Shown here piece by piece: positions 13,177 through 31,532 of a DNA stretch of 42,825 nt. Each line of letters opens with the position of its first letter. Position 1 is the stretch's first letter. The position numbers and the translations under genes are program-made. Origin of the DNA: a virus. The stretch lies in IMG/VR virus record IMGVR_UViG_3300045243_000040, positions 1 through 42,825 of that record, one strand, 5' to 3'. The notes below the pieces were generated by a model. The model worked only from the letters and a program-made list of their open reading frames with translations. It had not been told where the DNA came from and did no database searches.

Positions 13177-13429
13177 GGCGCTCCTCCAGCACCCTGTTGA
13201 CCTCAGCTACGAGCCGGATGCCGTCCTGATTCCATGCATAGGTCTGGATGTGCTGCGCGAGCCGCTGAAGCAGCCGACCAACTTCGCTGTCAGCCTTGAT
13301 CGTTCGCGCTTCCATGCGCTCACCTCCTCTCGCGCCCCCGCTTGCGAGCGCGGTCGAAGTGTCGCACCGTGGAGGCGTATGAGCGGCAGCATCAGGGTGA
13401 CGATCAGATCCAGACGTGAAAGAACTCAC
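13169..13429 (-). CDS. Hypothetical protein, start uncertain
   Basis: GTG 13429 overlaps the methyltransferase stop as GTGA, giving 86 aa with the element as P-D-A-A-A-H. A second in-frame start, ATG 13315, has an ideal AGGAGGTGA ribosome binding site and would give 48 aa (M-E-A-R-T-I-K-A-D-S-E-V-G-R-L-L-Q-R-L). The helical C-terminus is certainly expressed. The first 38 codons may be a leader or an alternative long form. Confidence 0.6.
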   Translation of the reverse strand: MSSFTSGSDRHPDAAAHTPPRCDTSTALASGGARGGERMEARTIKADSEVGRLLQRLAQHIQTYAWNQDGIRLVAEVNRVLEERRG

Positions 13430-14400
13430 GAAGCTAACGCCTCCCATTCGATGATTCGCCGGCCAAGCCACTCCGCGATCTGCGGGACGAGCGCATTGCC
13501 GAGGCTCCTAAGTCGGTCCACCCGAGCGGGAACCCCATCAGCCACTCGACCCACGGCGGGTTCAACGCTCCACCAACCTGCATCGACAAGCCCACCTGCT
13601 GCCCCGGCTTCAACTTGACGCGGCCCGGATGCTCCATCGACGATCTCGTCGGCGTTGCCCACGTCTCCCGCGCCACCGCTGTAGCCAGATCGTCCCCGCC
13701 TGATCCCTTCCGGTTCGCTCTTGCTAAGTCCGGTCCCGATGGGGATGACTTCGGCGTCGGCCAGCGCCGCATCATGTCCCTCGCATAACCGGGAACCTGA
13801 TCCCACGAGTCGAGTTCTCGCGGCAGAATCCCGAGTGTGACTTCGACCATTTGCGCCAGCGAGAACGCTGCCCAGTGACGCGCCTTCAAAGAGTCTCGTC
13901 CCGTGCGGTCCGCCGACGCTCGAGGGGTAGGCCACGATCCAGACCCGATCTCTTTGGTGAGGGGCGCCAATGGCACTAGTAGCTGGTATGCAGTCCCACT
14001 CTGCGTCATACCCGCTCTCGGCCAGGTCTCCGAGAACTCGTCCAAGGCCCCGTCCAAGCAAAGCTGAGACGTTCTCCACGATGACGTAGTCGGGTCGTAG
14101 CTCGCAAATGAGTCGAGCGAACTCCGACCAGAGCCCCGACTGTTCCCCGTCGATGCCTGCGCCCTTGCCAGCGGCGCTGATGTCTTGGCAGGGGAAGCCT
14201 CCGCAAAGGACGTCGACTGGCTCAACATCGGATCCTCGGAGCTCGCGCACGTCCTCGTAGCAGGGGACGTCGGGCCAGTGTCGGGCGAGGACGCGGCGGC
14301 AGAACTCGTCGGCCTCGCACTGCCAGGCGACGCGCATCCCGGCTCGTTCCAGGCCAAGGTCGAAGCCTCCGATGCCGCTGAACAGCGAACCGACATTCAC
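13426..14400 (-). CDS. dcm: DNA cytosine-5 methyltransferase
   Basis: The 324-aa protein shows the ordered C5-methyltransferase motifs. Motif I is F-S-G-I-G-G-F-D-L-G-L, motif IV is G-G-F-P-C-Q-D-I-S with the catalytic Cys, and motif VI is E-N-V-S-A-L. Motif VIII is Q-R-D-R-V-W-I-V-A, and motif X is L-G-N-A-L-V-P-Q-I-A-E. The target-recognition region is short. GTG 14400 follows a GGCGGAG sequence that resembles the start region of 14680. It would modify phage DNA against host restriction. A second plausible protein is encoded over most of it in another frame. Confidence 0.92.
   Translation of the reverse strand: MNVGSLFSGIGGFDLGLERAGMRVAWQCEADEFCRRVLARHWPDVPCYEDVRELRGSDVEPVDVLCGGFPCQDISAAGKGAGIDGEQSGLWSEFARLICELRPDYVIVENVSALLGRGLGRVLGDLAESGYDAEWDCIPATSAIGAPHQRDRVWIVAYPSSVGGPHGTRLFEGASLGSVLAGANGRSHTRDSAARTRLVGSGSRLCEGHDAALADAEVIPIGTGLSKSEPEGIRRGRSGYSGGAGDVGNADEIVDGASGPRQVEAGAAGGLVDAGWWSVEPAVGRVADGVPARVDRLRSLGNALVPQIAEWLGRRIIEWEALAS
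13434..14228 (-). CDS. Overprinted ORF inside the cytosine methyltransferase gene
   Basis: A 264-codon open frame on the same strand, in another frame of the methyltransferase gene, starting at ATG 14228 with GAGG upstream. It reads M-L-S-Q-S-T-S-F-A-E-A-S-P-A-K-T-S and later has F-S-E-T-W-P-R-A-G-M-T, several W-P-T-P units and N-P-P-W-V-E-W-L-M-G-F-P-L-G-W-T. From memory, these phrases recur in phage proteins annotated as hypothetical. They correspond to frame-shifted readings of motif IV and motif VIII-X DNA, so they may be true overprinting or a recurring annotation artefact. Confidence 0.5.
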   Translation of the reverse strand: MLSQSTSFAEASPAKTSAPLARAQASTGNSRGSGRSSLDSFASYDPTTSSWRTSQLCLDGALDEFSETWPRAGMTQSGTAYQLLVPLAPLTKEIGSGSWPTPRASADRTGRDSLKARHWAAFSLAQMVEVTLGILPRELDSWDQVPGYARDMMRRWPTPKSSPSGPDLARANRKGSGGDDLATAVARETWATPTRSSMEHPGRVKLKPGQQVGLSMQVGGALNPPWVEWLMGFPLGWTDLGASAMRSSRRSRSGLAGESSNGRR

Positions 14401-16612: not shown

Positions 16613-17746
16613 TTATGGTGCCTCCGTAATCGGCGGACTGTTGCGGGCCAGCTTCTCGAGCCGGTCGATGAGGTTGGACGCTTCGTCTTTGCTGAGCGTC
16701 TCGCGAAGCGGCGCCCAGTGAAGTTCCTCGTAATCGTCGCGCTTTGCCATAGGTGGATCTTGATTGCGCATCTTCGCGACCGCCATATACAGGTGTTCCG
16801 TGTGCAACCTGCCAGCCTCCCGCAGCGTCCCGACCAGCACGTTCAGCTTCTTCTTCTGGTCGGCCGTGATCTTCAGCGGGCGCTTCGTCTCCGTGATCTC
16901 CTTGCCACCGGGTGCGTCGTTGGGGACCGGGACGGGTGAGTCCTCGAACAGGAGGTCGTCAGCGGGCGGGATCGGCGCGGCCGAGCGGGCGGTGCGCGTC
17001 GTCGGCACGGGCTCGGCCTCCAACGCTTCCTTGAGGCCGACTGCGGCCATCAGGCGCGGCGGGATCGGCGTGTACGACATCTCGCCGTTGCCCGGCTCGA
17101 GCGCCGGCCGTCCACCCGACGCCAGCTGCTCATAGCTGACCTGGCAGTCGAGCACCGGCACCACATACCGAACTGCCTGTCCGTTCACATTGCCGCGCCG
17201 CTCCACGATCCTGAGTTTCGCCGGCACGAACGGGCGGCCCTGCGCGATACCCTGCACGAGCTCCAGCGAGCCGAGCAACTCCCGTGCGGCGTTCTCGCCC
17301 TTCGATTCGAGCCTCCAGCCGAGTAGCGTCGTCAACTCCGGTAGTGCCACGGTCAGACGGGTGATGAGCGAGCACTTGTCGTCGCCCTCCGCTACGCACT
17401 TGCAGGGCTGGCCGTCGTCCATCTCGATCCCGTCGCAACGCCGCTCCACCAGGGTCGGCGACGTGCGCAGCTCGTAAGACTGGCGCAGGCTGTAGTTGAC
17501 CAGAACGAGGACAGGCAGTTCCGAGGTCTCGGTCGTGAGCTGGAACTGCGGGCCGGTCGGCGATTCCCAAGGGGTAGGTGTTCCGCCGTACAGGCCCGCA
17601 GCCTGAGCGATCAGCCCCTGGTCGGGGCTGGTCAGACGCCAGTGGGTGAGGCGGCGCGGTTCGCCCTTGGGGCCTTTTTCGCCCATGCGGATGCGGCCGG
17701 CCTCGGAGAGGCGGCGCTGTAGCTCGATCAGTGGTGTGGGGCTCAT
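16613..17746 (-). CDS. phiC31 gp3-like protein (recombination directionality factor family)
   Basis: The 377-aa protein matches the gp3-like family. It has G-R-I-R-M-G-E-K-G-P-K-G-E-P-R-R-L-T-H-W-R-L-T-S, Y-G-G-T-P-T-P-W, and R-R-C-D-G-I followed by P-C-K-C. The C-terminal part is a charged helical region. In phiC31 gp3 switches the serine integrase to excision, but relatives occur in phages without an integrase and may serve in replication. No integrase was found here. It sits next to a RecB-like exonuclease. Confidence 0.8.
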   Translation of the reverse strand: MSPTPLIELQRRLSEAGRIRMGEKGPKGEPRRLTHWRLTSPDQGLIAQAAGLYGGTPTPWESPTGPQFQLTTETSELPVLVLVNYSLRQSYELRTSPTLVERRCDGIEMDDGQPCKCVAEGDDKCSLITRLTVALPELTTLLGWRLESKGENAARELLGSLELVQGIAQGRPFVPAKLRIVERRGNVNGQAVRYVVPVLDCQVSYEQLASGGRPALEPGNGEMSYTPIPPRLMAAVGLKEALEAEPVPTTRTARSAAPIPPADDLLFEDSPVPVPNDAPGGKEITETKRPLKITADQKKKLNVLVGTLREAGRLHTEHLYMAVAKMRNQDPPMAKRDDYEELHWAPLRETLSKDEASNLIDRLEKLARNSPPITEAP

Positions 17747-18048
17747 GTCTCCTCCACGGCAGCGATAGCTTGTTCGATCCGATCGGCTGTCTTGACGTTC
17801 TCTTGTCCGTACTCATGCTCCAGCTCGGCGAGCTTCGCGTATGCGCGAGCCTCCCGCGTGAGCCGATTCTCGCCGCCGGCAATTTTCGAGTAGTCCCACC
17901 AGACTTCACGATGGGCGAAGTCTCGGTCGACGATGCAATAGCTCGTCGCCATTGCGCGGCTCCGTTGCGAGTTGATGCCGTCGGTTCGGATCGAGTAGCC
18001 CTCGATCGCGAGCAGGGTGAAGCGTTCGCCACGGGCAATCTCAGCCAT
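17743..18048 (-). CDS. Hypothetical protein, 101 aa
   Basis: ATG 18048 overlaps the exonuclease stop as TGATG, and the gene's end overlaps the gp3-like start. The protein (M-A-E-I-A-R-G-E-R-F-T-L-L-A-I-E-G-Y-S-I-R-T-D-G-I) has a mixed first half and a helical, acidic second half (A-R-A-Y-A-K-L-A-E-L-E-H-E-Y-G). Translational coupling suggests that it works with the exonuclease. Unrecognised. Confidence 0.7.
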   Translation of the reverse strand: MAEIARGERFTLLAIEGYSIRTDGINSQRSRAMATSYCIVDRDFAHREVWWDYSKIAGGENRLTREARAYAKLAELEHEYGQENVKTADRIEQAIAAVEET

Positions 18049-18845
18049 CAGGCGATCACGGCCTGGGGACCCGACAGCGGTGTGCCGATCACGTTGCGCG
18101 AGGTCTCCACTTGCCAGCGCGCCACTTCCATGACGTGCCGCCAAGCCTTCCAAACTCGGTCCGAGGTGTCCACCACGCACAGCATGTAGTCGTCGGGTGA
18201 GATGACAAGGCACGCCGCCCCGTCGGTCTCAGGCATCGACGGATGCTCAGCGTCAGGGTTGAATAAGTAGTAGCGCTTCCCTCCCGTGTAGCGTCGTTCA
18301 GCGAGCACGCCGACATACTCAGCTCTGCGGTAGCTGACCAACTGCAGCGCGACCTCGGGAAACGGTGGCCGAGTCTTGCCGGAATCCTTCCCGTACTGGG
18401 TCGTCTTCAGATCCAAGACGAGTGTCTGTCCGTCGATCTTGACGATCGCGTCCAGCGTGCCGGCGTATCCGGCGCTCACGTTGTAGACGGGCGCTTCGGC
18501 CATCAGGAACTCCGGCTGAAAGTCAGCGAGGAACTGGTCGTACTGCTCGAGCAAAGGGATGTTCTGCGGGTCAATGTCGACGGGTTCGCCGAGCGCTCGA
18601 GCCTCCGCGGCCCTATGCACATCTGTCCCACGGGCGAGCGCGACGCTCGTCTTCGCCCAGCGCTGATCGCAGAGCCACTTGACCGCGCCGTCTCGGTCGC
18701 CGTCCTTGAGCATGGCTTGCACGATATGTCCGCGATCGACTGCCGCCTCCGCCGTCGTGCGAATCGCCCAATTCACGAGCGGATCGCTTGTGCCCATGCC
18801 GAGTTTGGCGAGCGTCGTCGATGACCAAAGTTTTAGCTCAGCCAT
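18048..18845 (-). CDS. RecB-family PD-(D/E)xK exonuclease
   Basis: The 265-aa protein has the RecB/Cas4-like nuclease order. V-H-R-A-A-E (His77, Glu81) is followed by A-G-T-L-D-A-I (Asp132), V-L-D-L-K-T-T (Asp145, Lys147) and A-L-Q-L-V-S-Y (Gln168, Tyr172). Such enzymes make 3' ends for phage recombination or degrade host DNA. ATG 18845 follows CAGGAG. No RecT or Erf annealing partner was recognised nearby. Confidence 0.88.
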   Translation of the reverse strand: MAELKLWSSTTLAKLGMGTSDPLVNWAIRTTAEAAVDRGHIVQAMLKDGDRDGAVKWLCDQRWAKTSVALARGTDVHRAAEARALGEPVDIDPQNIPLLEQYDQFLADFQPEFLMAEAPVYNVSAGYAGTLDAIVKIDGQTLVLDLKTTQYGKDSGKTRPPFPEVALQLVSYRRAEYVGVLAERRYTGGKRYYLFNPDAEHPSMPETDGAACLVISPDDYMLCVVDTSDRVWKAWRHVMEVARWQVETSRNVIGTPLSGPQAVIA

Positions 18846-28793: not shown

Positions 28794-31532
28794 TTACGCC
28801 TGCCTGCCGGCGTGCGGGCCGCGTCGCTGCGGCGGGTTGCGGGTGCGGGTGCGCTGCTGCTCGATCGTCACGGCCTGCGTGATGTCTCTCTTGTCGAGGT
28901 AGATGCGGATGTTGAACGTCGCCTGCAGCTTCCGCGACCCGCCATCTGTGCCTGCCTGCTGGCCGTGATGGGGGCGGCGGTGATGATGCACCTGGATCGG
29001 TCGTCCGTCCGGGCCGATGATGAACCCGCCGGCGCCTACACCCGAACCGGGCGCCGTGCCTCCTGGGCCGCGCTGCGACAACCGAGCTTCGAGCGCCTTC
29101 CGTTGCGCCTTCGTCAAGCCGAGTCCGGCGGTCTCGGCTGCGAGCGAAGCTTGCCGGTACTGGCCGAACGCGGCGTTGGCGTCGGCGCCGAGCTGCTGGT
29201 TGATCGCCGTGATCTGGTTGTAGATGTCGGTCTGCTTCTGAATGTTCCCCTTCGACGACTTGAGCGCCCGCTCGAGCGCCGCCTTCTCCTCGAGCAGAAT
29301 CTTTGTCTGGTTGCCGCCGGTCGCCTGTGCCTTCGCGAGCGCAAGTTGGAGTTTCGCGGGCTGCACGAACGTGGTGCTGCTCTGATTCTGCAAGGAGTCG
29401 AGCGCCTGCTTCGCCTGCAACTCGACCTGGAGCGCCGCGAGTTGGCCTTCCTTGTTCTTATTGCCGGATGCTATGGCTGCTCTTGCTGCGGCGAGGATCT
29501 GCTTCTCGACCTGGATGTCGTCCTTGGCCGAAGTGGTGAGCTGCGATCGTGCCTCTGCGAGTTGGAGGTCGATCGGTGTCGTGTACGAGCTCGCGGCGGC
29601 CTTCTTGGCTGCGGCGATCGCTGCGGCCTGCTGCGCTGCGTTCTGCCGTGCCCCGTCAAGAACGCCTTGCTGCGCGGCTTCGTCGTTGAGTGCCTGGACG
29701 AGACTTGCCCCTGCGAGATGACCATTAGCTATCAGCCGTTTGATTCGAGCAATGATCCGTTTCGCAGCAGCGACGTCGTCCTTCGTACCCTTAGTGAGTC
29801 CTGCTTGGGCGACAGCCAGTTGTTCGGTGATCGTCTGCGTGTATTGCGAGTAGACAGCGAGTGGCGTCGCGTTCCCGAAAGGACCAGCCTTCGCTCCGGG
29901 TCGGGCACCAGCGATATTGGGGAAGAACGATGGGCCGACATTGCCGCCACGCCCAATGTTTATGAGTCCCGGCGTGATGACGGGATCCCCAGGGATGGAA
30001 GGAACTTCGCGGTAGTAGACCTTGCCTTGGTAGATGTATTTCGCGTATAGCTTGCCGCCGCGTTTGACATATGCGGTGGCCGGTGAAGGGCCCGGGAACT
30101 GGTCGGCTTGGCTGCCGATGAAAGCTAGGGGGATTGCGGCAGCACCACTAGGACCGATCCGGGTTGCCGCTGGAGTTGTTGTGTATTGGCCAACACGGCT
30201 CGTAACCGAAGAACTGCCAGCAGGAACGATGAAAGGAGCCCCACCACGGCCCGCAACACCAGCGGCGCCTCCGCCCAGAGCCGTGCTTTCGGCAACAGCA
30301 GCCTCCCCAGCCGCGGTCGTCACTAGCCCCCATTTGGTAGCGAGACCTGTTAGTGCGTTCCCGAATGCCAGGACCTTGTTGACAGCAAAGATTGCGAGCA
30401 GCAGTTCAAGTGTGTGCTTGAACGAACCCGTCACCTTGTCGACGACCCCGACGACGGTGCCGAGCGTGTGGAAGACGGTTCCACCGATCGAAACTGCATC
30501 GTTCACGTCTCGCTGCAACCGGCCGGTCTCGTTCATCCTGGCGAGCCAATCTCCAGCCTCGGTCGTCAGCCTTGTGAACGTCGGCAACAGTGCCGTGCCG
30601 ATGATCTCCTCGGTGTCGACAAGGCTCGCGTGGAAGCGATCCGTGACGGTCGCCCCGGCCTTGGCCTGCCCCGCGAACTTTTCGGCGACGAAGGCGAGCG
30701 CGTCCATCCCCTTGACGTTGGCGGGGATGACGATGCCGAGCCTTTTGAGCGCGGTGAGTGATCCGCCCTGCGCCTTCGCGAGCGCAATAGCAGCCGACGC
30801 CAGCGAGATGTTCCGGCCCCGAGCCACGTCGGCGGCAACAGCAGTCAGCTTGAGCGACTCCGAGACATTCCCGTTCTCACGGACGAGGTAGCCGAACCCC
30901 TGCAGCAACTCCTGGTTCGTGAACCCGGAAAGATGCGAGAGCTTCAGGTCTGCGTGGTCGATCTGCTGGCCGTACTGGTCCCAAGACTTCCCGCTCGTCT
31001 TCAGCTGCGCGTCGACCTGGCGTTGCGTCGCGGCGAGCCTGAGCGCCGAACTGATGCTGGCCTTCAACAGAGTGGCGCCACCAGCGACGGCGATGAACCC
31101 GGTCGACGCAAACGCAAGCGAGCGCCCAAGACCCGCGGCAGCACCCGAACCGGCCAGCAGGCCGCGAGTCGTCTTGCCGACATCACGCTCAGCTGTTTGC
31201 GCCGCCCTCGAAGTTCCCGCCAGAGCTGGCGCAAGTCCAAGCTGCGCGTTAAGGCGGCCCTCGGCCTTGCTCGCAAGCAGCGCAGCTCGTTCCCTGACCG
31301 CCGCACTCTGTTCCGCCGACACCGCCAGCTCGCGGTATCCGGCGATCTGCGTCTTCAGCGCCTCCGTCGCACGCAGAGACGCAGCGACCGACTTGTTCGC
31401 CGACACCTGCATCGCCTCACCGACACCGAGCGACGACTCCTCCAGCTTCGTGTTCGACGCAACCGCCGTGTCTACCGTTTTCAGGTAGCCAGCGGCGTCC
31501 ATGACGAGACGAACGATCAGCGGGGCAGCCAC
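28794..31532 (-). CDS. Tape measure protein
   Basis: The longest gene, 912 aa. It is Ala/Lys/Gln-rich with long coiled coils, a hydrophobic stretch near 135-160 (S-T-G-F-I-A-V-A-G-G-A-T-L-L) and Gly/Pro-rich linkers. It follows the tail-assembly chaperone and the gp10-like gene. At about 1.5 angstrom per residue the tail would be near 135-140 nm, an estimate from the family rule. Confidence 0.9.
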   Translation of the reverse strand: MAAPLIVRLVMDAAGYLKTVDTAVASNTKLEESSLGVGEAMQVSANKSVAASLRATEALKTQIAGYRELAVSAEQSAAVRERAALLASKAEGRLNAQLGLAPALAGTSRAAQTAERDVGKTTRGLLAGSGAAAGLGRSLAFASTGFIAVAGGATLLKASISSALRLAATQRQVDAQLKTSGKSWDQYGQQIDHADLKLSHLSGFTNQELLQGFGYLVRENGNVSESLKLTAVAADVARGRNISLASAAIALAKAQGGSLTALKRLGIVIPANVKGMDALAFVAEKFAGQAKAGATVTDRFHASLVDTEEIIGTALLPTFTRLTTEAGDWLARMNETGRLQRDVNDAVSIGGTVFHTLGTVVGVVDKVTGSFKHTLELLLAIFAVNKVLAFGNALTGLATKWGLVTTAAGEAAVAESTALGGGAAGVAGRGGAPFIVPAGSSSVTSRVGQYTTTPAATRIGPSGAAAIPLAFIGSQADQFPGPSPATAYVKRGGKLYAKYIYQGKVYYREVPSIPGDPVITPGLINIGRGGNVGPSFFPNIAGARPGAKAGPFGNATPLAVYSQYTQTITEQLAVAQAGLTKGTKDDVAAAKRIIARIKRLIANGHLAGASLVQALNDEAAQQGVLDGARQNAAQQAAAIAAAKKAAASSYTTPIDLQLAEARSQLTTSAKDDIQVEKQILAAARAAIASGNKNKEGQLAALQVELQAKQALDSLQNQSSTTFVQPAKLQLALAKAQATGGNQTKILLEEKAALERALKSSKGNIQKQTDIYNQITAINQQLGADANAAFGQYRQASLAAETAGLGLTKAQRKALEARLSQRGPGGTAPGSGVGAGGFIIGPDGRPIQVHHHRRPHHGQQAGTDGGSRKLQATFNIRIYLDKRDITQAVTIEQQRTRTRNPPQRRGPHAGRQA

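Follow-up and report, generated by a model that had tools for sequence, protein, structure and literature searches.

A layout in which one methyltransferase subunit is encoded inside the gene for the other is known from a few bacterial enzymes. In M.EcoHK31I (YGGCCR), the small subunit is encoded within the large-subunit gene, in a different frame. The relevant passages of PMC3404938 describe both M.AquI and M.EcoHK31I as consisting of two polypeptides, and state that the large subunit of M.EcoHK31I carries motifs I–VIII and X, that the smaller one holds only motif IX, and that the predicted recognition domain is placed in the larger subunit. Out-of-frame coding within phage methylases has been described, in the abstract and sections 5, 18, and 19 of PMC11855218, for HNH inserts (the ShiLan domain); a nested methyltransferase subunit is not described in those parts of the paper. 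A literature search whose coverage stopped short of subscription papers returned nothing on nested subunits in the methyltransferases of phages, on their breadth in phages, or on recognition modules sitting in the small subunit.

The locus described here, with a large product (alpha) and a nested one (beta), resembles M.EcoHK31I as portrayed in those passages in that alpha has motifs I–VIII and X, and motif IX is on the small polypeptide. By analogy, it is best seen as a member of the M.EcoHK31I kind, because of this two-polypeptide layout with motif IX on the small subunit (PMC3404938, in part). It differs in that the recognition domain of M.EcoHK31I is predicted in the large subunit while the candidate modules here are in beta, a point that we count against the assignment. 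M.AquI (CYCGRG), in the same partial account, is similar in having its catalytic and C-terminal halves on two polypeptides, and some relatives of our locus (class B below) resemble it; unlike M.AquI, our locus has motif X in alpha and an overlap that spans the whole of beta. Motifs IX and X are both on the second polypeptide in the class B relatives but not here.

Organization of the locus

The window, i.e., the whole stretch of DNA analysed, is a 42,825-base virus sequence in which both genes lie on the minus strand. The features used below are as follows.

13426..14400, minus strand: alpha, cytosine-5 methyltransferase gene, frame 0, with motifs I–VIII and X
14234..14237, minus strand: GAGG, Shine-Dalgarno-like by sequence, five bases ahead of the beta ATG at 14228
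13434..14228, minus strand: beta, nested open reading frame in the +1 frame relative to alpha, 264 codons and a stop
14185..14202, minus strand: putative motif IV of alpha, GGFPCQ (translation)
13945..13968, minus strand: putative motif VIII of alpha, GAPHQRDR (translation)
13641..13934, minus strand: PTP modules of beta (WPTPRAS, WPTPKSS..GPDLARANRKGSGGDDLATAV, WATPTRS), proposed recognition region (translation; single-chain relative L172)
13540..13857, minus strand: alpha residues 182–287, predicted disordered (AF2 pLDDT below 50)
13509..13565, minus strand: motif-IX-like segment of beta, LNPPWVEWLMGFPLGWTDL (constraint, translation, weak DRM match)
13483..13500, minus strand: putative motif X of alpha, GNALVP (translation)

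Alpha likely starts at the GTG at 14400, frame 0 being open from 14499. It matches Pfam PF00145 (4.3e-40) and phrog_363 (9.1e-81), and motifs I, IV, VI, VIII, and X could be located in frame 0; GGFPCQ, GAPHQRDR, and GNALVP are the segments that we take to be motifs IV, VIII, and X. The original prediction of an uninterrupted 264-codon frame on the same strand over the methyltransferase was borne out: beta begins with an ATG at 14228, contains no internal stop, and ends eight bases short of the end of alpha. The +1 frame is open beyond this ATG, upstream as far as 14396 (320 codons). Beta is thus nested, in +1, inside the alpha gene, as the small subunit is in M.EcoHK31I, the two loci being compared by description.

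Three phrases of the +1 product had been expected over particular alpha motifs, and all are present. EASPAKTS (14178–14201) does lie over motif IV; TWPRAGMT (within SETWPRAGMT, 14004–14033) lies over the alpha sequence GYDAEW, just before motif VIII; and the third (LNPPWVEWLMGFPLGWTDL) is found just upstream of motif X and not over it. In frame 0, the bases encoding this last segment read VEPAVGRVADGVPARVDRL. Beta matches phrog_1008 (4.5e-22), as do all 81 aligned relatives; no match was found among Pfam and NCBIfam models. The phrog_1008 family is described just as a DNA methyltransferase, and the overlap with alpha is absent from its listing.

Upstream of the methyltransferase, also on the minus strand, are a Gp3-like recombination directionality factor (PF18897, 8e-29; 16613–17746) and an exonuclease (phrog_298, 1e-27; 18048–18845). 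Elsewhere in the record, a 412-codon open reading frame (28812–30050, plus strand) is antisense to a 912-codon one (28794–31532, minus strand). Long antisense frames of this kind, common here at high G+C, are probably due to chance.

Conservation of the +1 frame

An alternative to a second gene is that the +1 frame is an untranslated by-product, arising from high G+C together with motif conservation in the methyltransferase. Long chance frames are indeed common in this record, which contains 82 open reading frames of at least 150 codons at ~64% G+C. The length of beta is therefore weak evidence, and we rejected it as an argument. When the alpha gene alone was subjected to synonymous shuffling, one +1 stop was observed and 4.1 were expected (P = 0.02).

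Relatives were more informative. We fetched 80 loci with the beta-frame protein and 80 with the methyltransferase protein, the latter set not being chosen on the +1 frame. The stop count retained 76 and 57 of these, respectively; 10 of 171 loci had no motif IV pattern, and the other losses were duplicates or sequences containing N. In the 57 distinct methyltransferase-chosen loci, 92 stops were found in the +1 frame from motif IV to the end, compared to the 229 expected under synonymous shuffling, while the +2 frame, used as a control, had 435 compared to 446 expected. The +1 frame stays open in relatives with a G+C content as low as 47%, which argues against a compositional by-product.

Comparisons between motifs VIII and X used 131 distinct regions out of 154, from 171 loci. 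No +1 stop was present in 120 of them, and nine had one only past the nested motif, i.e., the motif-IX-like segment of beta, so that the frame is open through the nested motif in 129 of 131. A single region (L131) has a stop before the nested motif, inside the modules, which counts against a nested subunit; another, from phage L003, is a single-chain form (see below) and for that reason has no nested motif in +1. Frequent stops among homologues, which would have spoken for an artefact, were thus not seen. Judged from these sequence comparisons, the evidence for a second frame is far beyond chance.

Substitution patterns lead to the same view. From motif VIII to motif X, alignments of the +1 products were superior to those of the frame-0 products in 8308 of 8515 pairs; within the set not chosen on +1 this held for 1461 of 1485 pairs, and for the window compared with every other region, in 126 of 130 cases, though pair counts are not independent of one another. 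As controls, frame 0 was the better one in all 990 pairs over the stretch that begins at motif I and ends shortly before motif IV, and in all 36 pairs of nine single-chain enzymes over the VIII–X segment. Our first omega counts used pairs picked by +1 identity, which lowers omega(+1); frame-neutral DNA alignments, which remove that choice, gave over 134 pairs an omega(+1) of 0.063 [0.053–0.074] and an omega(frame 0) of 0.687 [0.52–0.92]. Differences at frame-0 codon positions 1, 2, and 3 were 0.361, 0.155, and 0.128, as is characteristic of coding in +1. The same type of count between motifs I and IV gave an omega(+1) of 2.0 and an omega(frame 0) of 0.05. Between motifs IV and VIII, omega(frame 0) was 0.07, and the +1 estimates disagree (dSN/dSS of 1.17, indicating no +1 constraint, vs. 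dNN/dNS of 0.54), which we count against our reading. Synonymous change in alpha was 0.94 of expectation from the gene start to 25 codons before motif IV, 0.47 near GYDAEW, 0.15–0.18 at the nested motif, and 0.93–0.97 at the end. Synonymous constraint thus begins near motif IV and is strongest at the nested motif.

Frame 0 is also maintained. None of 160 viral-contig loci had a frame-0 match that stopped short of query residue 330, a position beyond motif X (the check displays failing loci only, and for half of the loci the beta frame was the sole basis of selection). Selection on +1 only would be expected to produce ~2.8 frame-0 stops per locus (199.9 over 71 regions); the zero observed in the VIII–X count is partly by construction, as motif X was required within the same open reading frame. 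Both frames are therefore kept open. On this evidence, both frames are under selection in the family, the amino acids of the alpha linker are weakly constrained, and the second frame is real rather than an annotation artefact. Of the two options offered originally, overprinting of a catalytic gene is the one supported by the open, selected +1 frame. The other, a recurrent artefact, fails: although the phrases between motifs IV and VIII are partly forced by frame-0 conservation, in the stretch devoid of frame-0 motifs +1 is conserved more strongly than frame 0 and is far from neutral, with an omega(+1) of ~0.06. We regard an untranslated by-product as extremely unlikely.

Relatives and the identity of beta

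Among actinobacterial and phage relatives, three arrangements were found. In single-chain enzymes (L172, L181, L183, L184, L185, L187, L192, L200, L204, and phage L003), the catalytic half and motifs IX–X are in one frame; L172, for example, has GAPHRRERVFILA, LLPTPRAS..GPDYQRRNRDGSGGDDL, FSEWMMGWP, and GNGVVPQQ, in that order. In the split arrangement (class B: phages L001, L002, L007, and L010; Streptomyces L174, L179, L180, and L182), frame 0 stops after motif VIII and the remainder, motif X included, is in +1. The nested arrangement, with motif X in frame 0 (class A), is that of our record and nearly all viral-contig loci. When 39 loci were searched with a IX–X pattern, it was in the frame of the catalytic half in 10, in +1 in four, and in +2 in one; 21 had no match to the pattern and three had no catalytic half. 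Matches to phrog_1008 in G007, G008, and G009 are separate pieces in different open frames of one locus. In class B the two frames overlap, and the phage records of this class are mostly annotated as two methylase genes.

The beta profile of class A matched the profile of the class B C-terminal half with an hhalign probability of 99.3 (E 9e-21). The C-terminal two thirds of beta match the VIII-to-X region of single-chain methyltransferases, and its motif-IX-like segment, LNPPWVEWLMGFP, aligns with FSEWMMGWP..GNGVVP of these enzymes. Sequence similarity thus shows that beta is homologous to this region. Given the profile match and the in-frame relatives, beta corresponds to the part of a normal enzyme that comprises motif IX and the recognition region, and is probably the DNA-recognition part. 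In the PDB, the top match to the beta profile was plant DRM LEPDEVEMLLGFPKNHT; this match is weak (E 0.7) and is counted against this assignment. The designed SAKe proteins, the only PDB sequence match (beta residues 89–109), were judged to be a composition match.

Predicted structures bear on whether beta could instead function apart from the enzyme, say as a regulator or a nuclease. In the AF2 model of alpha, residues 1–160 and a part close to the C-terminus are confident, and the model matches M.HhaI and M.HaeIII across ~166 columns of 324–327 residues, about half of the length in the case of M.HhaI; its disordered stretch coincides with the modules and motif IX of beta. For beta, the AF2 model is poor, and a fold search with it returned no match, which counts against a nested subunit and leaves room for a separate role, as does the fact that beta has an N-terminal segment of its own (SWRTSQ, SETWPRSGM), predicted as strands. 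A separate role nevertheless accounts neither for the match between the C-terminal two thirds of beta and single-chain methyltransferases nor for an alpha without an ordered recognition region, and we consider it very unlikely. The original prediction had also asked whether the second protein ever occurs without the methyltransferase; in the loci read, no such case was seen, the catalytic half being always adjacent or surrounding.

Two relatives, L015 and L036, carry an HNH-like zinc-binding insert in +1, just past the motif-IX-like segment and inside the methyltransferase gene. They resemble the ShiLan-type inserts of PMC11855218 (in the parts cited above), which, like beta, are second proteins in another frame within a phage methylase. 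The ShiLan-type HNH is, however, a mobile endonuclease, while beta itself belongs to the enzyme family.

Proposed expression of beta

A second protein could be made from its own start or by a +1 ribosomal frameshift after motif VIII, which would yield one fused catalytic-recognition protein. Class B phages do switch frame just past motif VIII, and the fused order works in single-chain relatives. A fused class A product would, however, lack motif X, which sits in frame 0, and the constraint on +1 begins upstream of motif VIII and therefore cannot be explained entirely by a shift after it. Shine-Dalgarno-like matches (at least five bases) ahead of a +1 ATG, found in 32 of 141 loci with ~10 expected, likewise favor a separate start. 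An ATG near the proposed start of beta is in slight excess (81% of loci vs. 74% expected) and is missing from 19%, which counts against that start. In a comparison in which 134 loci were matched and seven were not, a second +1 ATG, over GYDAEW, was retained by 115 of the 122 loci that have Tyr-Asp at this point (seven without it vs. 60 expected); this ATG may serve as an internal start, or its residue may be what is conserved. Overall, we find frameshifting unlikely and favor a separate start for beta.

Distribution

A tblastn search with beta matched 118 phage records, 87 of them from Mycobacterium phages; among the matches listed (60 of 118), 59 of 60 have an annotated gene underneath, mostly a methylase or methyltransferase. 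A viral scan with the beta-frame protein returned at least 599 stretches, 597 of those being relatives. The phrog_1008 profile matched 27 of the 398 genomes sampled from a single phylum, the one to which G006 (Bradyrhizobium, locus L203) belongs, and a plasmid search with the open reading frame gave three records. In all 12 loci fetched, beta overlaps the alpha open reading frame at +1 by 606–1122 bases; alpha showed no match to the simple motif X pattern in seven of them, whose C-termini therefore differ. Beta carries no annotation in any of four class A phage records that were inspected (L005, L006, L008, and L009), and specificity predictions from alpha alone would therefore take the linker for the recognition domain.

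Discussion

We propose that the locus very probably encodes a two-subunit cytosine-5 methyltransferase, with both subunits made from one stretch of DNA in two frames. Frame 0 would yield alpha, the catalytic domain (motifs I–VIII and X) with a disordered linker replacing the recognition domain. The +1 frame, presumably translated from 14228, a separate start inside alpha near motif IV, would yield beta, bearing motif IX along with the recognition modules. Alpha and beta would then assemble into one active enzyme, as in M.EcoHK31I, and such an enzyme may serve the usual phage purpose of marking its own DNA against host restriction. Relative to the M.EcoHK31I kind, what differs is the putative placement of recognition modules in beta and the breadth in phages.

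With little more than even confidence, we extend this reading to a very widespread phage and prophage family encoding catalytic and specificity subunits in two frames of one DNA. Specificity would reside in the string of PTP modules of beta, swapped between viruses, while the linker of alpha need only stay open. Frameshifts between motifs VIII and X would link this family to single-chain enzymes, so that a given segment would have served as a recognition domain in one lineage but as a linker in a different one. Such a family would provide a large natural collection of genes with long overlaps on the same strand, both products being selected and having a clear functional link, and a system for studying how one DNA sequence serves two frames.
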